A stretch of 64,000 bases of DNA from Zhihengliuella flava (GTDB lineage Bacteria > Actinomycetota > Actinomycetes > Actinomycetales > Micrococcaceae): positions 1,178,001 through 1,242,000 of the forward strand of contig NZ_JADOTZ010000001.1 of NCBI RefSeq assembly GCF_015751895.1, given 5' to 3'. A model generated the notes under the pieces. The model ran no database searches. It was not told where the DNA came from and saw only the letters and a program-made list of their open reading frames with translations. Both the position numbers and the translations under genes were made by a program. Shown piece after piece: positions 5,150-21,394 of the stretch; position 1 is the first letter of the stretch, and the number at the start of each line of letters is the position of its first letter.

Positions 5150-6463
5150 CTACTGCAGCGCCGACTCCAGTTCCGCGTAGGCGCTCGCGGCGGCCTCATC
5201 CACAGACTGCAATTCCATGTAGACCTCCGTCTCGTAGCGGTGCAGAATGTCCTGGAACTCACCGAAGCCGGCGGCCGGGACAGGCTCGGGCGCCTGGACC
5301 TCATCCTCGATGTCCTGCAGGAACTCGGCGGCGTCCAGCTCGGTGCCCTCCAGCGTGTCGATGACCGCGTCCCGCACATCGGAATTGGCGGGCAGCCCGC
5401 GGTCCGTCAGGTTCTCCAGACCCGCCTCTTCGGAATTGACAAAGTAGTCAATGAATCGCTGGGCCTCCTCCGGATGCTCGGTGGTCGTACTCGCCGAGAG
5501 GAACATGGAGACACGCTGCCAGAGGCCGTTGTCCTCAGCCGAGCCCGTCATGCTCGGCAGGCGCAAGGGCACCAGCTCCACGCCGGCGGCGTCCGAGGCC
5601 GCGGGCAAGAGGTTGCTCCACCCGTTGAGCACGCCCATCTTGCCTTGGGCCAACAGCGAGCGCTCCGTCCCGGCGGCCCGGTCCTCTTCGATGATGGTCG
5701 GCTCCGGGTAGCTGCCCCGCTCGACGAACTCCTTCTGGAACTGGAAGTACTCCCGCAGGTCTGCCTCGTCGAACCCGATGCTGCCATCCTCGTTGATGAG
5801 GTGGAGGCCCTCCTGACGCAGCCAGATCATGATGCCGCCGACCGGCTCGAAGGGGGACGTGGACCCGTAGCCGCCATCGACCTGCTGGCTGATCTGCTCG
5901 GTGACTTGACCAAAGTCCTCCCACGTCCAGGACTCGTCATCCGGCAGCTCGAGCCCAGCCTGTTCAAACACCTCGGGGTTGGCCATCATGGCGATCGACG
6001 CAAAGCCCGTGGGGATGCCGAACTGCCCCTCGTCCGTGCGTCCCTGCACCAGCAGGTCCTCGCTGATCTTGGAGGTGTCCACGTCGGGCAGATCCCGCAG
6101 CACGCCGCGGTCCGCGTACTCGCGGAAGTAGGCGAGGTCCATCTGCATGATGTCCGGGGTGTCCCGCGCCGCGGCCTGGGTGGCCAGCTTGTCCCAGTAC
6201 CCGGTGAAGCTATTTGGCTCTGGCAGGATGTCGATGTCCGGGTTCTCGGCCTCAAACGCTTCGATGATGGCCATGGTGTTCTGGGAGCGCGCGTCCGATC
6301 CCCACCAGGAAAAGCGCAGCGAGACCTGCTCGCCTGATTCCCCGGCCGATTCCGTCGATCCGCCGCAGGCTGTCAGGGCCAGCGCAGCGACCGCCGCCAC
6401 CGATACCGCACGTGCCGTCGTGCCCCGTTGGGTGCGACGCTTCCTCGTTGACTGTACTTCCAC
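5150..6463 (-). CDS. Sugar ABC transporter substrate-binding lipoprotein
   Basis: A 437-residue family-1 solute-binding protein starting at GTG 6463, 7 nt after GGAGGAG. A long basic n-region (RKRRTQRG) precedes a lipoprotein signal with lipobox LTAC. The mature protein opens with VSLRFSWWGSDARSQ and shares the DIDI...GYWDKLATQ and FREYADRGVL blocks with its two paralogues, but is more diverged (SFTGYWDKL in place of GDWGGYWDKL). It is the first gene of a unit with the DUF2264 and TIM-barrel genes. It differs from the other regulon members in its operators: twin GAACGTTC palindromes at 6504-6527 instead of the GCGCTTTCC type. A separate ligand or inducer is therefore possible. Confidence 0.93.
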   Translation of the reverse strand: MEVQSTRKRRTQRGTTARAVSVAAVAALALTACGGSTESAGESGEQVSLRFSWWGSDARSQNTMAIIEAFEAENPDIDILPEPNSFTGYWDKLATQAAARDTPDIMQMDLAYFREYADRGVLRDLPDVDTSKISEDLLVQGRTDEGQFGIPTGFASIAMMANPEVFEQAGLELPDDESWTWEDFGQVTEQISQQVDGGYGSTSPFEPVGGIMIWLRQEGLHLINEDGSIGFDEADLREYFQFQKEFVERGSYPEPTIIEEDRAAGTERSLLAQGKMGVLNGWSNLLPAASDAAGVELVPLRLPSMTGSAEDNGLWQRVSMFLSASTTTEHPEEAQRFIDYFVNSEEAGLENLTDRGLPANSDVRDAVIDTLEGTELDAAEFLQDIEDEVQAPEPVPAAGFGEFQDILHRYETEVYMELQSVDEAAASAYAELESALQ

Positions 6464-13357: not shown

Positions 13358-14494
13358 ATGCACCCCACTACTGCCGCCACGGCCACCGCGGACGCGCTCA
13401 TTACGGAGCAGGCCACCAAACATCAGCGGCTCGTCGCGCTCTTAGAGGAACGCGGTGCGGACTCGCTCCTGCTGACCTCCGCCGGGGCGCTGTCCTGGTA
13501 CCTGGGCGGCGCGCGCGTCCACGTGTCCCTCGCCGGCGGCCCGATTGCGGCCGTTCTGGTGCACCGGGGCGGCGCCGAGCTCGGGCTGTTCACGAACGAG
13601 GCGGCGAGGTTGCGCGCCGAGGAGCTCGGCGGCAGCGAGGGCGTCACCGTCCACGAAGTGCCGTGGCACGGGAATCTGCACGACGTCGCCGCTTGGTATC
13701 CGGAGGCGTCCGCGTGGTCCATCCTCGGCGAGGAGGAGGTGGCCGCCGGGTTGCGGGCGGCGCGGGCCAGCCTGTTGCCGGCCGAGCTTCAGCGCTACCG
13801 CACGCTATGCCGCGATGCGGCCGCGGCGCTGACGGACGTGCTGACCGCGGCCACCGGCGAGATGACCGAACGGCAGGTCGCCGCCGAGCTGGCCCGCGCC
13901 GTGGTGACCTTCGGGGCGGACCCCGTGGTGGTTCTGGTCTCCGGCGACTCGCGGGCCCAGCACCGGCATCCGCTGCCCACCGACGCACCACTGGGCCGCC
14001 GCGCCATGGCCGTGGTGTGCGCACGGAAGTACGGCCTCATTGCCAATGTCACCCGATGGGTCACCTTCGGTGAGTTGCTCGACGGAGAAGAGGAGCTGGA
14101 CCGCCGCATCCTCGAGGTCGAGGCCGAAATCTTGGGCCAGCTGCGTCCCGGGGCGGCGATGGATGAGCTACTTCCGGTCATTCAGGAGGCCTACCCCCGG
14201 CACGGTTTCGCCGAGGACGAGTGGACAAAGCATCACCAGGGCGGCGCCGCCGGGTACAACGGGCGCGACCCGCGGCTGGCCCCCGGCGTGGCGGACACGC
14301 TGGTGACCGGCCAGGCGTTCGCGTGGAACCCCACCGCGGCGGACCCGCTGACCGGGCTGGTGGCCAAGGTGGAGGACACCATCCTGCTCACCGAGCGCGA
14401 GGGAGCGCCCGTGCTTGAGGTGCTCAGCGTCGACGAGCGCTGGCCGAGCGTCGAGGTGGCTGGCCGGCAGCGCCCGGCTGTGTTGCGGCGCTAA
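13358..14494 (+). CDS. M24 (creatinase/prolidase-fold) family protein, probably not a peptidase
   Basis: A 378-residue protein with an N-terminal creatinase-like domain (residues about 15-145) and a pita-bread M24 domain after it. ATG 13358 follows GAGGAAG. Three of the five usual metal ligands look replaced. The first Asp position reads VVCARKYG, the second reads IANVTRW where SDxTRT is expected, and the Glu of the EPG motif reads AWNPT. The His region (KHHQGG) and the last Glu (VEDTILLT) remain. It may bind a ligand or one metal and act on a non-peptide substrate. It is co-directional with the oxidoreductase-PmoA fusion 23 bp upstream, so a role in the same sugar pathway is likely. Confidence 0.85.
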   Translation: MHPTTAATATADALITEQATKHQRLVALLEERGADSLLLTSAGALSWYLGGARVHVSLAGGPIAAVLVHRGGAELGLFTNEAARLRAEELGGSEGVTVHEVPWHGNLHDVAAWYPEASAWSILGEEEVAAGLRAARASLLPAELQRYRTLCRDAAAALTDVLTAATGEMTERQVAAELARAVVTFGADPVVVLVSGDSRAQHRHPLPTDAPLGRRAMAVVCARKYGLIANVTRWVTFGELLDGEEELDRRILEVEAEILGQLRPGAAMDELLPVIQEAYPRHGFAEDEWTKHHQGGAAGYNGRDPRLAPGVADTLVTGQAFAWNPTAADPLTGLVAKVEDTILLTEREGAPVLEVLSVDERWPSVEVAGRQRPAVLRR

Positions 14495-14495
14495 C

Positions 14496-14604
14496 GTACC
14501 GGCCAGCCCACTCTCCCGGCGGCGGGGCCGAGCCGCATCCCGCTGACAACGGGTTTTGCGAACTCGGACCGCACCGGGCAGGCCGAAAGTGGGCTGGCCG
14601 GTAC
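14496..14604. repeat. 109-bp repeat with 17-bp inverted ends, copy 1
   Basis: The element begins GTACCGGCCAGCCCACT and ends with its exact inverted copy AGTGGGCTGGCCGGTAC. A second copy at 20331-20439 differs at only two of 109 bases and lies in the same orientation. It starts one base after the stop codon of the M24-like gene and carries no coding frame. No target-site duplication is visible. It resembles a MITE or REP-type element. Confidence 0.85.
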
Positions 14605-14611
14605 ACCACGT

Positions 14612-14643
14612 GTGAGGGCCCGGCCACGTGGCCGGACCCTCAC
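14612..14643. terminator. Palindromic hairpin downstream of the lyase gene
   Basis: GTGAGGGCCCGGCCAC is followed directly by its near-perfect inverted copy (one mismatch). It lies 15 bp after the lyase stop on the minus strand, between convergent genes. No T-run follows. Confidence 0.6.
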
Positions 14644-14658
14644 GCGTTCCGGGCTCCG

Positions 14659-17600
14659 CTAGCGGATGGTCACCTCCCGCTGCTCAGAGGCCGTCTGCCC
14701 GTGCTGATTCTCGGCGATGACCTGCACCGTGTGGCGGCCGGCGGTCGCCTGGTCCCACTGCAGTTTCACCTCCTGCTCGCGCCCGGTCTCGTCCACCACT
14801 GCGGCGGAGGCCACCGTGTCGCCGTCCACCACAAGGTGGAAGGTGTGGGCGTTGTTCTCTCCCTCGGCGATGCTCGCCTCCACGCGCAGCTTGTCCACCT
14901 CCGCATCATCGATCGCGAAACTCACCGCGCCAGGAACGTCCGCTGCCGGCCCGGGCACGCGCTCGGGCGCCGGCGCCTCGGCCGTATACGCCAGCGACGG
15001 GGCGTCCGGGGCGCTCATGCCCTCGCCGATGAAGTACGAGGTGTGTGGCGGCTGGTTGTAACCGGTATTCTGCCACGCCACCGCTAGGCGGTACTGCGAG
15101 TCAGACATCAGCGTGTAGAAACGCTCCTCAGTCGGGATGACGGTCGTCGCAATCCGCAGTGCCGAAGAATCCTCGGTGCGGGTGACGATTTCCTCGCGCC
15201 AATCCCCCATGAGGTCAGCCTGCAGGGAGAAGTTGCCCTTCGTGCCGTTGTTGCTCAGGGTGCCCTCCGCACGGTAGAGCTCCTCGGCGGACTCGGTCTC
15301 CCAGTTCCACTTAGAGATGGTCGGCACGCCCGCCCCCTGGTCAGCGTCGTACTCATGATCGCCGATCTCACGTAGGAGGTCCCCATCCCAGAAGGTCAGG
15401 AAATTCGCCGCCGGAATGTTCTCCGCAATCAGCTCGCCGGAGGCGGACGTCAACTGGCCCACGGGCGAGTTCCACGCCGCGTCTCCGCCGACGGCCCAGC
15501 CCTCCGCGCCGTCGTAGCGGGGGTCGATGTCCCCCATCGCCGCACGTCCGGTATCCACCTCGGCGGGGATGTCCCACAGGATCTCGCCCGTGGCCGCGTC
15601 GCGCAGGGTGGCCCCGCGCTGGCCGGAAGCGCCGATGTCCTCGTGAGCGGAGAAGACCTCCAGCCCCGGGCGGCTCGGGTCGAAATCGGAGACGTGCTGA
15701 GCGTCACCGTGGCCGAGCCCGGTGTTGTAGGCCACCGTGCCGTCGTCGTCCAACGTCAGGGAGCCATAGACGATTTCGTCCTTCTGGTCCCCATCCACGT
15801 CGTTGATGGACAGCGAGTGGTTGCCCTGACCGGCGAACTCCTTCCCGTCCACGTCCGAGTCAAACACCCAACGCTGGCTCAGCTGCTCGCCATCAAAGTC
15901 GAAGGCGGCCACCACGGTGCGGGTGTAGTAACCGCGGGCGAACAACGCGCTCGGCGTCTCCCCGTTGAGGTAGGCGGTGCCAGCCAGGAACCGGTCCACC
16001 CGGTTGCCGTAGCCGTCGCCCCATGAACCCACGTCACCGCGAGCCGGCACGTAGTCGATCGTGTCGATCGCGGCACCCGTGGCGCCGTCGAAGACCGTCA
16101 AGTACTCGGGGCCGGTCAGCACGCGCCCCGCGGAGTTGCGGTAGTCGGCGCGGGCCTCCCCGATTACCGTGCCCTCACCGTCCACCGTTCCATCGGCAGT
16201 CTTCATCATCACCTCGGCGCGGGAATCGCCGTCGTAATCGAACACCTGGAACTGCGTGTAGTGGGCACCGGCACGGATGTTGTGGCCGAGGTCAATCCGC
16301 CACAGCTGAGTGCCATCGAGCTCGTAGGCGTCCAGATAAACATTGCCGGTGTAGCCCTCGCGGGAGTTGTCCTGCGAGTTGGTCGGATCCCACTTGACGA
16401 TGTATTCGTACGCGCCGTCCCCGTCCACGTCGCCGACCGAGACGTCGTTGGCGCGGTAGGAGTACGGCTGCCCGTCCTTGGAGTAGGCGTCTTCCGGTGT
16501 GTTCAGGTCGATGTCCAGCGTCTGCGCTTGCTGGACCCCGAACTCGACGCTGGCCCAGTGCTCGATCTCGCCAGCCGCGGCCGGCCGGCCCTTGCCGCGG
16601 CCCTTGCCGCCGGGCTGCTCGGCGGGTGCGACGGCGGTGCTCAGCCGGTAGGTCGACGCGGCCGTTCCGTTCTCGTCGACCCAGTTGGTGCTCGCAGTGA
16701 TCGGCTCGTCGGTGACGCGCTCGCCATCGCGGTACACGTGGAACGCGGTCTCTTGGTCATCGCTGCCGAGGAGCCGCCATCCGAGGAACACACCGTCGCC
16801 CGTGTCGACGGCCACCGGGGATCGATCCAAGCGTTCCGCCTGGCGCTCCAGCTGCGTGACGGCCTCGGAGACGGCGGGCTCGGACGGCTCGGACGCACCG
16901 CCAGCGTTCACCGCGGCCACCGTGTAGGTGTATTCGACGGTCGTCAGGACGTCGGTATCGGTGTAGCTGGCGGTGTCCGCGCGGCCCACGAGCGCGGGTT
17001 CGCCACCCGGTTCGGCGCGATAGACGTGATAGAAGAGCGCCTCCTCCGAGCCGTCCCACGTCAGCTCCACGGAGTTCTTGCCGATCTCGCCAACACGGAG
17101 TTGGGTCGGGACGGGGGCGGTGGGCACGGACTCGTCGATGGTCACCACGTCCACCGCGTTGGAGGCGACCGATTCCGCGCCGGCCGCGCTGACGGCCACC
17201 ACGGTGTAGGTGTACTCGACGCCGACGTCCGCGGTGGTATCCGCGAACTCGGTCGCTTCCGTTTCCGTCAGTTGTTCTGGCTCGGCGGCGCCTTGGGCCT
17301 GCCGGTAGACCCGATAGGCCGCAGCGTCTTGGGTCCCCTGCCAGGTCAGCGGCACGCTCACGCTGGAGCCGTCGATGACGACCTCCCCGGCGGTCAGGCC
17401 CGCCGGCGTGTACATCAGCGGCGTGATCTCCAGACCGTTGAGCCACCCGGAGGCCTCCACGGTGAGCTGGCCGTCCTCGACGATCACGGGCTGCAAGACC
17501 TTACTGGTGGTGGTGCCACGGCCGGCGTTCGAGGTCCCGAAGTCCTGGCCCTCGAGGCTGACGCCCAGACGCGCCGTACCGATCATGTCGCCCCACGTCA

Positions 17601-20163
17601 CCTCGACGGCGTAGCTGCCATTGGGGAGGTCGACGGCGATCGGCGTGTCGCCGCTCGGCAGCACGAAGTCCCGCTGCAGGTCATTAGGCGCTGGGTCGAA
17701 GTTCGTCCCGCGGTCCCGTCCGTCCGGCATTCCATCCGTGAACCCGTAGCCGAGCTCCTCGGTATACGCGGTGGTGTTATCCAGGGCCGTGTACCCTTCC
17801 TGGGTCACGTGGCCCTCCAGCTGCAGGTCAAACTTGTGCAACGGCGCCTTCGTGGTGACCTCCACGGTGGCAGAGGCGTCGGACGGGCCCCGTCCGTTCA
17901 CGGCCACCACGTGCAGTTGGTAGTCAGTTCCCTCCTCAAGCCCCACGACGTGGGCCATCGGCAGGGTGGCGGTGGCCAGCAGCCGGTCCTCCTCGGCTCC
18001 GGCTTCCCGGCCGTACACGCGGTACATGTCCGCGCCCTCCACCTCAGTCCACGTCAGCGTCGCGCCGGAGGCGGAGACGTCCGAGGTGACGACGCCGGCC
18101 GGTGCGGCCGGCACGTCCGCCGGCGGTTCGACGTCGTGCACCTCGTCCGCCAACGGGATCTCCAATTCGGCCACGTCCTGGGCCACGAGGCGCGCCATTT
18201 GAATGGCGCCGTACTCCTGGAAGTGCGTGTCATCCTCCGTGCCGTTGGGGCGGTTTGGGTACACGCCGGCCGGAACCCACAGGAAGACGGACTTGGCTTC
18301 CTCGGGGCCGATCTCGTTGAGGTAGGCGCGGCTCGAGGCGGACAGATCAACGAGCGGGGTACCGGTTTCTGCGGCCAGCTCGCTCGCGTGGCGCACATAG
18401 TCGGGGAAGGAGACGTTGAACTCGCCCGTCGACTCATCGAAGGAACGGCGTGAGACCGGGGTGACGAGGATCGGCGTGGCGCCGCGCTGCTGGGCCCCCT
18501 CGACGAAGGTCCGCAGGTAATTGCGGTAATCGGCGGGAGCGGCGAAGCGGTCGTCGACCCCGTAAGAATTGTCATTGTGGCCGAACTGAACGAACAGGTA
18601 GTCACCCGGCCGGATCTGCCGCAGGACCGTGTCGAGGCGGCCCTGGCTGATGAAGTTCTTCGACGAGCGCCCGCCGATCGCGTGATTGTCCACCGCGACG
18701 TCGTCCGACACGTAGCGCTGCAGCATCTGCCCCCAACCGGCCTGCGGTGCGTAGTCGTCCGTGTACGTCTGCACGGTGGAATCGCCCGTCACGAACGCCG
18801 TCGGCTGCGCCGCGGCCTCGCGGTCCGGGTGGCGCGTCAGCGTCAGCGCGGAGATATTCGCCGCATCTCCGGTGAACTCGAGGTTCAGCTGCCCGTCGAC
18901 GAGGGCGAGGTCGAACTCCATTTCATGAAATTCGCCCGCGTTCTTCTGTACCGCGGCAACCTTGTCCATCTGCTCGGCGGTGATGGCTAGGTCCGTCGGG
19001 CCCTCGGCGTCGCCGGCGATGACGCCGACCGTGTAGTCGCCGTTCGGCAGGTCTGCGACGAACTCGGTGTCCCCAACAGTCACAAAGTCCGCGCGGACCG
19101 CGTCGTCGCCGCCGCGGTCCGTGCCGGCGACGGCGGCCGGATCCACGAAGCCGAGGCGAGTGGCGGCGTCGTACTGCGTTTCCGCCGTGACCTGCTGGTA
19201 CTCGCCGGCGACAGCCCCGGGACCGAAATCGAGGCGAAGGGTCCCGGACGCGGGAAGGGCGGGTGCGTCCCCCGTCAGGAGCGCAACGGCGGACGCGGAG
19301 GGACCCGACGTGCCGGACTCAGTCAGCGCGTGCACGCGGTAGTAGTTCACCGCGGCCGTATCCGCATCGGCGTGCGTGGCAAACACTTCCCGGGCTCCGG
19401 TCCGGGCCACCTCGGTGTACTCGCCGTTGAGCTCGGTGGAGTGGGTCAGCAGGTACCCGGTGGCCTCCGGCACCTCGTCCCAGCGCATGGTCACCGACCC
19501 CTCGGCAACGTGCGCTGTGCGCAAGGACTCGGGGGCCACGCCGGAGCTGGCTGGCGGATCGGTGGGCTCCGGATCGGTGGGGACGGTACCGACGTCGCCC
19601 GTGCGGGTGATGGAGATGCCGTTGACGTAGCCGTTGCCGGAGCCGGTGACGTCAATCGTGAGCTGGCCATCGGTGACGGCGGTGCTGAACACCTCGCTGG
19701 CTACGGTTTCCGGGTCCGGGCGCACGTGGCCCGCCTCCGCCCCTTCGAGAGCGATGGTGGTGCGGACACTGCTGGTTCCGGCCAGCGGATCGCCAGCAAA
19801 GACCTCGACGTCGTATTGCCCGTCCGGCAAGTCCACGGCGAACGTCCACTCGGCGCCGAGGACGAAGTCTCCGCCCAGCGGGTCAGCGTCTGAGGACCGG
19901 TCCCGCGAGGCAAGCCCGGGGTTGTCCAGAATGCCAAAGCCGGCCTCGGCCGAGTACGTGTTGGTGTGGTCGATGGCTGTGTAGCCCTCGGCGACGGCGC
20001 TGCTGGCGGTGCCGAAGTCGAAGGCGAAGTCCGCAGCGCCGGCCGTGGTGGTACTCAGCCCCAGGGGGCTGGCTAACGCGGGGCCGGCCGCGCCGGCAAC
20101 CACCGCGGAGGCGGTGACCACGGCGAGGCTGAGCCGCAGGGGTTTGGTGAAACGATTCATCAT
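14659..20163 (-). CDS. Secreted multidomain rhamnogalacturonan acetylesterase / PL11 rhamnogalacturonan lyase
   Basis: A 1,834-residue secreted enzyme; start ATG 20163 (or the next ATG, 20160) follows AGGAAG. Approximate layout: signal peptide 1-32; malectin-like 42-190; FN3 210-300; malectin-like 305-450; SGNH acetylesterase (CE12 type) 455-670; FN3 680-770; malectin-like 775-915; two FN3 920-1105; family-11 rhamnogalacturonan lyase 1110-1735; C-terminal Ig-like domain to the end. Esterase residues visible are Ser462 in GDST, Asn530 in GHND, and Asp644/His647 in DDTH. The lyase shows the family blocks SYRANDVSVGDVDGDG and IDLGHNIRAGAHYTQFQVFD with repeated DxDGD calcium-loop motifs. It should deacetylate and cut the rhamnose-galacturonate backbone of pectin RG-I outside the cell. 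No anchor motif is visible, and 109-bp repeats flank the gene. Confidence 0.92.
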   Translation of the reverse strand: MMNRFTKPLRLSLAVVTASAVVAGAAGPALASPLGLSTTTAGAADFAFDFGTASSAVAEGYTAIDHTNTYSAEAGFGILDNPGLASRDRSSDADPLGGDFVLGAEWTFAVDLPDGQYDVEVFAGDPLAGTSSVRTTIALEGAEAGHVRPDPETVASEVFSTAVTDGQLTIDVTGSGNGYVNGISITRTGDVGTVPTDPEPTDPPASSGVAPESLRTAHVAEGSVTMRWDEVPEATGYLLTHSTELNGEYTEVARTGAREVFATHADADTAAVNYYRVHALTESGTSGPSASAVALLTGDAPALPASGTLRLDFGPGAVAGEYQQVTAETQYDAATRLGFVDPAAVAGTDRGGDDAVRADFVTVGDTEFVADLPNGDYTVGVIAGDAEGPTDLAITAEQMDKVAAVQKNAGEFHEMEFDLALVDGQLNLEFTGDAANISALTLTRHPDREAAAQPTAFVTGDSTVQTYTDDYAPQAGWGQMLQRYVSDDVAVDNHAIGGRSSKNFISQGRLDTVLRQIRPGDYLFVQFGHNDNSYGVDDRFAAPADYRNYLRTFVEGAQQRGATPILVTPVSRRSFDESTGEFNVSFPDYVRHASELAAETGTPLVDLSASSRAYLNEIGPEEAKSVFLWVPAGVYPNRPNGTEDDTHFQEYGAIQMARLVAQDVAELEIPLADEVHDVEPPADVPAAPAGVVTSDVSASGATLTWTEVEGADMYRVYGREAGAEEDRLLATATLPMAHVVGLEEGTDYQLHVVAVNGRGPSDASATVEVTTKAPLHKFDLQLEGHVTQEGYTALDNTTAYTEELGYGFTDGMPDGRDRGTNFDPAPNDLQRDFVLPSGDTPIAVDLPNGSYAVEVTWGDMIGTARLGVSLEGQDFGTSNAGRGTTTSKVLQPVIVEDGQLTVEASGWLNGLEITPLMYTPAGLTAGEVVIDGSSVSVPLTWQGTQDAAAYRVYRQAQGAAEPEQLTETEATEFADTTADVGVEYTYTVVAVSAAGAESVASNAVDVVTIDESVPTAPVPTQLRVGEIGKNSVELTWDGSEEALFYHVYRAEPGGEPALVGRADTASYTDTDVLTTVEYTYTVAAVNAGGASEPSEPAVSEAVTQLERQAERLDRSPVAVDTGDGVFLGWRLLGSDDQETAFHVYRDGERVTDEPITASTNWVDENGTAASTYRLSTAVAPAEQPGGKGRGKGRPAAAGEIEHWASVEFGVQQAQTLDIDLNTPEDAYSKDGQPYSYRANDVSVGDVDGDGAYEYIVKWDPTNSQDNSREGYTGNVYLDAYELDGTQLWRIDLGHNIRAGAHYTQFQVFDYDGDSRAEVMMKTADGTVDGEGTVIGEARADYRNSAGRVLTGPEYLTVFDGATGAAIDTIDYVPARGDVGSWGDGYGNRVDRFLAGTAYLNGETPSALFARGYYTRTVVAAFDFDGEQLSQRWVFDSDVDGKEFAGQGNHSLSINDVDGDQKDEIVYGSLTLDDDGTVAYNTGLGHGDAQHVSDFDPSRPGLEVFSAHEDIGASGQRGATLRDAATGEILWDIPAEVDTGRAAMGDIDPRYDGAEGWAVGGDAAWNSPVGQLTSASGELIAENIPAANFLTFWDGDLLREIGDHEYDADQGAGVPTISKWNWETESAEELYRAEGTLSNNGTKGNFSLQADLMGDWREEIVTRTEDSSALRIATTVIPTEERFYTLMSDSQYRLAVAWQNTGYNQPPHTSYFIGEGMSAPDAPSLAYTAEAPAPERVPGPAADVPGAVSFAIDDAEVDKLRVEASIAEGENNAHTFHLVVDGDTVASAAVVDETGREQEVKLQWDQATAGRHTVQVIAENQHGQTASEQREVTIR

Positions 20164-20198
20164 TGAGTCGCGCTCTTCCTGGGTTGGGGACGGGAAAT

Positions 20199-20214
20199 GG
20201 ATTGCGCTTTCCAA
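20199..20214 (-). promoter_or_regulatory. LacI-type operator, regulon site 4
   Basis: GGATTGCGCTTTCCAA lies 5 bp downstream of the -10 box of the lyase promoter and shares the GCGCTTTCCAA half with the 24854 site. Confidence 0.65.
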
Positions 20215-20219
20215 CGATG

Positions 20220-20248
20220 AACGTAATGTGGATCACATAGACGGTCAA
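20220..20248 (-). promoter_or_regulatory. Lyase promoter with CRP-like site in the spacer
   Basis: On the minus strand: -35 TTGACC (20248-20243), 17-bp spacer, -10 TACGTT (20225-20220). Spacer and -10 contain TGTGATCCACATTACG (20237-20222), a degenerate TGTGA-N6-TCACA. Confidence 0.6.
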
Positions 20249-20330
20249 GGGTTTCTTGTATGCAGTCTGAGCATCACCCGTGCAGTAGGTGTGCGTTACC
20301 TGCGAGTAACCGCGACGGCGTGCGGCACAA

Positions 20331-20439
20331 GTACCGGCCAGCCCACTCTCCCGGCGGCGGGGCCGAGCCGCATCCCGCTGACAAGGGGTTTTGCGAACTC
20401 GGACCGCGCCGGGCAGGCCGAAAGTGGGCTGGCCGGTAC
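20331..20439. repeat. 109-bp repeat with 17-bp inverted ends, copy 2
   Basis: This copy matches 14496-14604 in 107 of 109 bases, same orientation, ends GTACCGGCCAGCCCACT and its inverted copy. It begins 46 bp beyond the stop of the SDR gene, so both copies lie just downstream of a stop codon. Such placement suits a hairpin that also ends transcripts. Confidence 0.85.
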
Positions 20440-20485
20440 GGCAAGGCGGCCAGCTCGGTGCGTCCAGTTAGTCAGCTCGCAGCGT

Positions 20486-21394
20486 TTAGCCGGCCAGCTC
20501 GGTGCGCCAGCTGCGCTTCGGCTCCCAGCCGAGTACGCGCCGAGCCTTGTCGATGCTGAACGCCGGGGCGGAGCCTGTGAGGCCCTCAGCCAGATGCGCC
20601 AGTTCCGGATAGATCTCCGGAATGACCTCGCGCAGCGGACGGCGGGCCATGGCGTCGGCAGCACCAACGAAGAAGACGTCGCCGTTCTCGATCACGTGCA
20701 TGCGTTCCAGGAGGAGCAGCAGAAAATCCGTGACGTCCCGCGCGTCCACGTAATTGAACAGGGCCGGCGCGGAGAGGGCCGGGTCATCCAGCCGCTCCGT
20801 CACCGTGTGGCCCTGCTGGGTGGGGGCGCCCTGCCACTCCTCCGGCGCGATGACGTAGCACGGGCGGAAGGACGCGAACTTCACGCCTCGCTCCCCGTCG
20901 CCGGGTCCGTGCTTGGCCGCGAACATCGCCGCCACCTGCTCGGCCACGTGCTTCGAGAGCCCGTAGGCATGCCAGGGCCGCGGCGTGACGTCCTCGTCGA
21001 GCGGCAACCGCGGAGGGACCCAACCGGCGGGTGAGCCGTAGCCCATGATGGATGGGCTGGAGGCGACAATCACCTTCCGCGCGCCGGCTTCCACCGCGGC
21101 GTCGGTCACGTTGTGCGCAATCGCGGAGTTCGTGGTGAGAATGACGTCTTCCGGGGCGCTGAAGGGCACGGCGATCGCGGCGAGGGAGACCACGGCCTCG
21201 GGAGCCCGCTCGGCGAACAGCTGGCGCGTCGCCGCGGCATCCAACAAATCAACCTCGGCATAGTCCGCTCCCGTCACGGGATCCGCGGGGGTTTGCCGGT
21301 CCACGCTCACCACGCGATGACCGGCGGCCACAAACCCCTCGACGACGCTGCGGCCCAGCCGCCCGGACCCGCCTGTAATGAGGACGCTCGCCAT
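20486..21394 (-). CDS. NAD(P)-dependent epimerase/dehydratase-type SDR oxidoreductase
   Basis: A 302-residue extended short-chain dehydrogenase. The N-terminal Rossmann motif is VLITGGSGRLGRSV, the catalytic Ser/Tyr/Lys set is in ASSPSIMGYG and YGLSKHVAEQ (YxxxK at about residue 151). ATG 21394 lies 3 bp after the upstream oxidoreductase stop, so both are on one transcript. Candidate roles are sugar-nucleotide epimerase, or oxidation of an aldose or uronate. A uronate dehydrogenase acting on galacturonate released from RG-I would fit the locus (inference). A 21-bp copy of its 3' end occurs just beyond the stop. Confidence 0.85.
   Translation of the reverse strand: MASVLITGGSGRLGRSVVEGFVAAGHRVVSVDRQTPADPVTGADYAEVDLLDAAATRQLFAERAPEAVVSLAAIAVPFSAPEDVILTTNSAIAHNVTDAAVEAGARKVIVASSPSIMGYGSPAGWVPPRLPLDEDVTPRPWHAYGLSKHVAEQVAAMFAAKHGPGDGERGVKFASFRPCYVIAPEEWQGAPTQQGHTVTERLDDPALSAPALFNYVDARDVTDFLLLLLERMHVIENGDVFFVGAADAMARRPLREVIPEIYPELAHLAEGLTGSAPAFSIDKARRVLGWEPKRSWRTELAG

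Follow-up and report, generated by a model that had tools for sequence, protein, structure and literature searches.

Two near-identical palindromes around a rhamnogalacturonan lyase gene as probable solo elements of a REPtron-like system with a Vsr-like nuclease

Two near-identical 109-bp repeats that enclose a rhamnogalacturonan lyase gene are probably solo, non-autonomous mobile palindromes of a REPtron-like selfish system in which the cognate enzyme would be a Vsr-like nuclease and the lyase a bystander. The family is dispersed in the genome, and orthologous sites that lack a copy are found in congeners. It probably originates from the terminal palindrome of a small nuclease gene 0.6 million bases away. 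The same palindrome–nuclease architecture recurs in relatives, the arms of the solo palindromes match those of the resident nuclease species by species, and the nuclease gene is under purifying selection.

Results

The two palindromes flanking the lyase gene

The window (the whole 64,000-nucleotide stretch of DNA that was analysed) contains two 109-bp copies in the same orientation, at 14496–14604 and 20331–20439, which are identical at 107 of 109 positions, as a reading made from the sequence alone had reported. Each copy has the perfect 17-bp inverted ends described there (GTACCGGCCAGCCCACT), which can be extended to 20 bp with one mismatch; in copy 1 the extended arms lie at 14496–14515 (left) and 14585–14604 (right), neither being assigned a strand. 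When up to three mismatches are allowed the 17-mer has five matches in the window, compared with 0.32 expected from shuffles, and no shuffle reached five. The 109-bp unit has GTAC ends and forms one hairpin with a folding energy of −73.9 kcal/mol (z=−6.7 versus shuffles). The strand of an element is set by the strand that carries the apical TTGTCAG, which places both copies on the minus strand. The apical core is CGCAAAACCCGTTGTCAG in copy 1 (14543–14560, minus strand) and CGCAAAACCCCTTGTCAG in copy 2 (20378–20395, minus strand), the family consensus being CGCAWMANNCCTWGTCAG.

Copy 1 follows an M24 peptidase-like gene (13358–14494, plus strand), whose TAA stop codon lies 1 nt before the start of the element, and is adjoined by an ordinary bidirectional terminator-like hairpin (14608–14647, no strand assigned) that is separate from it. 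The resident gene between the two copies (14659–20163, minus strand) lies outside the element and encodes an 1,834-residue protein comprising GDSL esterase, FN3 and PL11 rhamnogalacturonan lyase parts. Copy 2 begins ∼170 bp upstream of where the lyase starts, its other end lying 46 bp past the 3′ end of an NAD-dependent epimerase gene (20486–21394, minus strand). The near-identity of the pair, at a distance of 5.8 kb, suggests recent short-range copying or gene conversion. A direct repeat of ∼16 bp (GGCCAGCTCGGTGCG core) is present at window positions 20446–20462 and 20490–20506, in the stretch from copy 2 to the epimerase gene end, and is possibly a small duplication beside the insertion. Elsewhere in the window, three diverged direct copies (16–482, 1611–2077 and 5861–6327; 65–79% identical over 110–300 nt) are probably three paralogous genes.

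A low-copy dispersed family

The 2.90-Mb host genome (G000) contains at least seven hairpins with the same arms (GTACNNNCCAGCCC…GGGCTGGNNNGTAC, also cited by the arm tag GTACCGGCC) together with two older relatives, and the genome-wide count that the sequence-only reading had called for is thus that of a low-copy dispersed family. A both-arm pattern with no mismatches finds seven elements of 100–120 bp on contig C1, at 1192496, 1198331, 1451337, 1457497, 1790877, 1933770 and 1972742, and has no match in 98 relatives; the reversed control pattern has none either. The arm-pattern searches demanded CCAGCCC, and the apparent conservation of those bases is thereby biased. A covariance model adds two members with different arms (1426970 and 2086889) and a further two that belong to a related genus. 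Full-length BLAST recovers only two full copies and one partial match, the arms being conserved well beyond the interior, and a BLAST search for the 109-mer in 59 relatives, plasmids and phages yielded only short chance matches. Five viral contigs containing the 17-mer were dropped, as by our estimate they are at about chance level for a collection of that size.

Copies other than the lyase pair are 54–68% identical to one another. Substitutions in the arms are compensated (CGG/CCG to ATT/AAT and others) and the terminal sequences differ completely between subfamilies while their pairing is kept; such compensation could occur without selection if palindromes are corrected by template switching. 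The copies are few (nine) and recent activity is evident from the one near-identical pair alone. A stop codon lies 1–99 bp before the element in all nine members and convergent genes are found on both sides in six of them, based on gene calls from a simple codon-usage script and not on curated annotation.

In most members the motif CGCAWMANNCCTWGTCAG is located at the apex or close to it. The CCTWGTCAG core may nevertheless be incidental, since the interiors diverge freely and the core also occurs outside hairpins. A scan with the apical core only gave many isolated matches, which are partly due to chance, and led to paired hairpins in two relatives (G012 and G077). One exact core (CGCATCATTCCTAGTCAG) is present in the window at 608–625 on the minus strand, ∼20 bp upstream of the start of a lipoprotein-like gene and with no long palindrome around it, and similar cores, isolated or in tandem, also occur in other genera, for example at C3:305865 and 305915 of G026. 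A solitary arm-like sequence (GTACAGACCAGCCCACTCTC; host C1:1695754–1695773, locus L033) is situated within the loop of a terminator-like hairpin, downstream of a gene that resembles inorganic pyrophosphatase, and is possibly a decayed copy or a chance match.

Empty sites and adjoining terminators

Empty orthologous sites show that the family copies are insertions. At the purB site the hairpin is missing in four congeners, which keep the ordinary terminator, and at the 1933 site it is missing in two. At the 2086 site the stop codon of G003 is directly followed by the terminator (GGCACATCTGAGAACG), G002 has at that point a 109-bp palindrome, GTGCC...CTCGCAC (AGCAC[...]ACCTGAGAACG), and an older-type hairpin is present in the host genome as well. 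In the comparison of G002 with the empty site of G003, GCAC adjoins the GTGC...GCAC element; palindromic GTAC ends hide any 4-bp duplication.

The sequence-only reading had also considered that the copies, which lie just after stop codons, might be terminator-like mobile repeats. The dispersed family and the empty sites bear out the mobility and the position, but the terminator-like character does not hold, as separate, ordinary terminators adjoin the copies and persist where the element is absent. It is for the same reason rather unlikely that the palindromes are host structures, that is, terminators or structured RNAs with a function of their own, and that the nuclease (DUF559) genes found beside some of them (see below) are there by coincidence or as invaders of terminator-rich sites. 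Such an origin would fit the invariable position after a stop codon, often between convergent genes, and the strong hairpins with compensated arms. However, a U-tract intrinsic terminator was called at neither window copy, the copies are lineage-specific and share their arms with the palindrome of the resident nuclease, and a search of the Rfam families gave nothing credible for the element, only two sub-threshold matches.

Two specific assignments were dropped. The short-loop G+C-rich stem with a U-tract that an intrinsic terminator would have was called at neither copy, and the hairpin at 14608–14647 is a separate structure. An integron attC site would have the outer core sites GTTRRRY and RYYYAAC, which are absent, the ends being GTAC and variable between subfamilies.

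The lyase is an older resident

The sequence-only reading had proposed that the two repeats bound a lyase cassette that recombination would delete or insert as a unit, and had held that relatives with the lyase and without the repeats would speak against this. Two congeners are such relatives. Full-length lyase orthologues are present in G001 (77% identical) and G003 (75%); the gene order peptidase–lyase–epimerase–oxidoreductase in G003 is identical to that of the host genome, and G001 has the lyase in the same cluster, which there includes one additional gene. The family hairpin is absent from the lyase sites of both congeners, and the arm pattern and covariance model found zero family members anywhere in these two genomes. 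Therefore, the proposal is contradicted by the very observation that had been named against it, and the lyase is an ordinary, older resident and a bystander to the repeats. That the repeats are boundaries of a lyase cassette is highly improbable, even though they are near-identical, direct and enclose exactly one gene, and even though other single genes (an MFS gene in L060 and a NUDIX gene in L133) are enclosed by similar hairpin pairs, because in the absence of the repeats the lyase still occupies this place in G003 and is in the corresponding cluster of G001, and the same repeats stand singly after seven other genes of the host genome. RecA-type recombination between the copies could still delete the lyase, of which no sign was seen. 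Interpreting the repeats as mobile palindromes accounts for their presence around the lyase without cassette transfer.

The two other enclosed genes were found in relatives. On contig C1 of G012, one MFS-transporter gene lies between two similar, directly oriented family hairpins (L060, 1501–1629 and 2943–3071) in parallel to the lyase arrangement, and in G077 two weakly scoring family hairpins, also direct (L133, 1518–1613 and 2516–2623), surround the NUDIX gene.

A nuclease gene that ends in the family palindrome

One family hairpin, C1:1790877–1790995, overlaps the stop codon of a gene (C1:1790925–1791791) for a 288-residue nuclease, 0.6 million bases from the lyase. The protein matches PF04480 (DUF559) above the cut-off and PF18741 (MTES_1575) below it, and contains a conserved D...ExD core and a VDFLVEGWLIVEVDG motif. 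The partner is accordingly, from its sequence, a predicted Vsr-like PD-(D/E)XK nuclease of the DUF559/MTES_1575 group. Only a 3′ palindrome is present at this gene, a search for an upstream one having found none. In G012, which belongs to another genus of the same family, two more DUF559 genes (L054 and L128) are located between paired family hairpins; PF04480 is above the cut-off also in L054, and PF18741 is above it in L054 and below it in L128. A weak AbiEi match is present at the N-terminus of one G012 protein. A profile made from nine proteins of this type matched an endonuclease-like protein in the PDB (3hrl, E=2.6e-7) and, weakly, a mobile intron protein (3r3p, E=0.0045). The nuclease gene is under purifying selection, with dN of 0.038 and dS of 0.146 between G002 and G003. 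The annotation ‘type IV toxin-antitoxin system AbiEi family antitoxin domain-containing protein’ is given to relatives of the nuclease on two plasmids of Tsukamurella tyrosinosolvens, NZ_LR134468.1 and NZ_LR134454.1, and this name may be misleading given the palindrome architecture found elsewhere.

A RAYT with matching ends, which the sequence-only reading had suggested searching for, is absent from the host genome. The Y1_Tnp domain (PF01797; RAYT/IS200) was not found there, while the same search was positive in 5 of 14 known genomes used as a control, and the matching palindrome belongs to the DUF559/MTES_1575 nuclease gene. This bears on the possibility that the elements are miniature inverted-repeat elements (MITEs) derived from a conventional DDE or HUH transposon, the full copy of which is missing or has gone unrecognised. 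They would qualify as short, non-coding and dispersed sequences with terminal inverted repeats, but besides the missing Y1_Tnp domain, the ends of the subfamilies are wholly different yet paired, unlike ends that are fixed by a transposase, and the arm matches contain neither a transposon with such ends nor a clear case of a transposon end standing alone. On these searches, which covered the Y1_Tnp domain and the arm matches, we consider a MITE origin quite improbable.

The arms of the solo palindromes follow the resident enzyme. Orthologues of the nuclease are present at the same locus in G002, G003 and G004, and absent from it in G001. The arms of the 3′ palindrome are GTACCGGCCAGCCCA in the host genome, GTGCGARTCGCCCCGTTTTCG in G002 and G003, and TTCCCCCTTTTCG in G004, with a core near CCTWGTCAG in each case (CCCAGTCAG in G004). 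Dispersed copies of the GTGCGARTCGCCCCGTTTTCG arm type are confined to G002, with three further loci, and G003, with one; those of the GTACCGGCCAGCCCA type are confined to the host genome. Solo palindromes therefore share the arms of the nuclease palindrome of their own species.

Palindrome pairs around nuclease genes in relatives

The generality of the association was assessed with 43 DUF559/MTES_1575 loci collected from the host genome and relatives, and with 111 control genes of similar size, some of which were taken from loci and genomes different from those of the DUF559 genes. Under a fixed rule, matched palindrome pairs in direct orientation flank 13 of the 43 DUF559 loci and none of the 111 controls (Fisher P=1.4e-8), and a repeat shared upstream and downstream is present at 15 of 43 loci compared with 0 of 111 (Fisher P=6e-10). 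By eye, ∼16 genes have near-identical direct palindromes, one upstream of the gene start and the other at the stop codon or immediately beyond it. The stems are up to 34 bp long, and the sequence varies between elements and matches within each. At the thresholds used, about two-thirds of the examined DUF559 loci are without a recognisable matched pair. In the Actinomyces oris plasmid NZ_CP116225.1, two 122-bp palindromes that are identical at 113 of 122 positions surround the DUF559 gene PGE45_RS11770; the record contains this palindrome at four places. The association of palindrome and nuclease is thus general.

The same arrangement could be generated in the opposite direction if the DUF559 gene were a homing-type invader of pre-existing palindromes that it duplicates on entry, with the solos as unoccupied targets that spread by other means. 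The enzyme is distantly related to the mobile-intron protein 3r3p, and flanking palindromes in direct repeat are what a target duplication would yield. Homing alone, however, leaves unexplained both the spread of the solos and the species-by-species tracking of the resident enzyme by their arms, and an element whose enzyme cuts the palindrome would itself be cut at both of its ends. We regard this alternative as unlikely.

Discussion

We propose that the window copies are solo palindromes that are mobilised in trans by a small (∼290 residues) nuclease of the DUF559/MTES_1575 group, which in some relatives has an AbiEi-like N-terminal part. The autonomous unit in relatives would be palindrome–nuclease–palindrome, as in a REPtron but with an unrelated enzyme. 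By the stem arms and possibly the conserved apical CCTWGTCAG, the nuclease would recognise its own palindrome in one of two forms, an extruded cruciform or a single-strand hairpin on the lagging strand. It would then nick the palindrome, and repair or copying would place a new palindrome just after another gene, presumably the least harmful spot. Arms and enzyme would drift together, giving each species its own arm type. That the nuclease cuts the palindrome and drives its copying is a step that we infer by analogy with TnpA-REP hairpins (PMC8266576).

More broadly, though with a little less than even confidence, we suggest that these elements represent a selfish class found across the Actinomycetota, in which a Vsr-like nuclease, often with an AbiEi-like N-terminus, lies between two long palindromes of its own and spreads solo copies in trans. 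The class would be an analogue of the REPtron that is built on a metal-dependent PD-(D/E)XK nuclease and whose arms and enzyme coevolve by lineage. If this is true, many proteins whose annotation reads ‘AbiEi family antitoxin’ or ‘DUF559 endonuclease’ are enzymes of mobile elements, and a function would be assigned to a very common actinobacterial family that is now named ‘DUF559’, ‘hypothetical’ or ‘AbiEi antitoxin’. To our knowledge, extragenic palindromes with a dedicated enzyme have so far been tied to HUH tyrosine transposases, and a second, unrelated enzyme family with the REPtron architecture would mean that this lifestyle arose more than once. No description of the palindrome–DUF559 architecture was found in the open-access literature searched, which contains few preprints. 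Several species with different arms offer ready sets of enzyme and cognate palindrome substrates for a direct in vitro test.

Comparison with known systems

Palindromic intergenic repeats of ∼100–155 bp that are thought to move in trans include the ERIC, Correia and RUP-type MITEs, which have conserved ends and are linked to known or presumed transposases. The present family has ends that differ between lineages, and its partner is a nuclease. SMR-A of Haloquadratum walsbyi is similar in its length of ∼110 bp, prominent inverted ends, non-coding nature and mobility. It shows no obvious target duplication, is numerous and homogeneous, inserts into near-terminal palindromes of IS605-type elements and has no proposed enzyme (PMC3119063). 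TIRtrons also have an enzyme gene (TIRYT) between element-specific long repeats and also form small dispersed families, although their enzyme is a tyrosine HUH transposase (PMC3733652). The EDxHD or Vsr-like homing endonucleases (3r3p; EDxHD named in PMC6083498) share a distant match of the nuclease-domain profile and the character of a small, selfish endonuclease gene. The nuclease described here differs from them in being intergenic, with palindromes at its ends, and not within an intron or intein, and it spreads or coincides with solo palindromes.

The closest resemblance is to REP sequences and REPtrons. These are extragenic palindromes near gene 3′ ends and in convergent intergenic regions, which in some cases provide the stop codon (PMC8266576, PMC3733652), and they have an enzyme gene that is mostly single-copy and flanked by palindromes of its own, dispersed solos and a repeat type specific to the resident enzyme. 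The elements described here follow a stop codon (9/9) and lie between convergent genes (6/9), and the enzyme gene is bordered by the same palindrome, on one side in the host genome and on both sides at 13 of 43 loci. The enzyme, however, is a DUF559/MTES_1575 nuclease and not a Y1 HUH transposase (RAYT/TnpA-REP). In addition, a REP is defined as a palindrome of 20–50 nt preceded by GTAG (PMC8266576), whereas these palindromes are ∼100–120 bp long, have GTAC ends and no GTAG tag, and number nine copies as opposed to hundreds. With both the HUH enzyme and the GTAG tag missing, the system is by definition not a REPtron, which leaves its proposed REPtron-like way of working unaffected.
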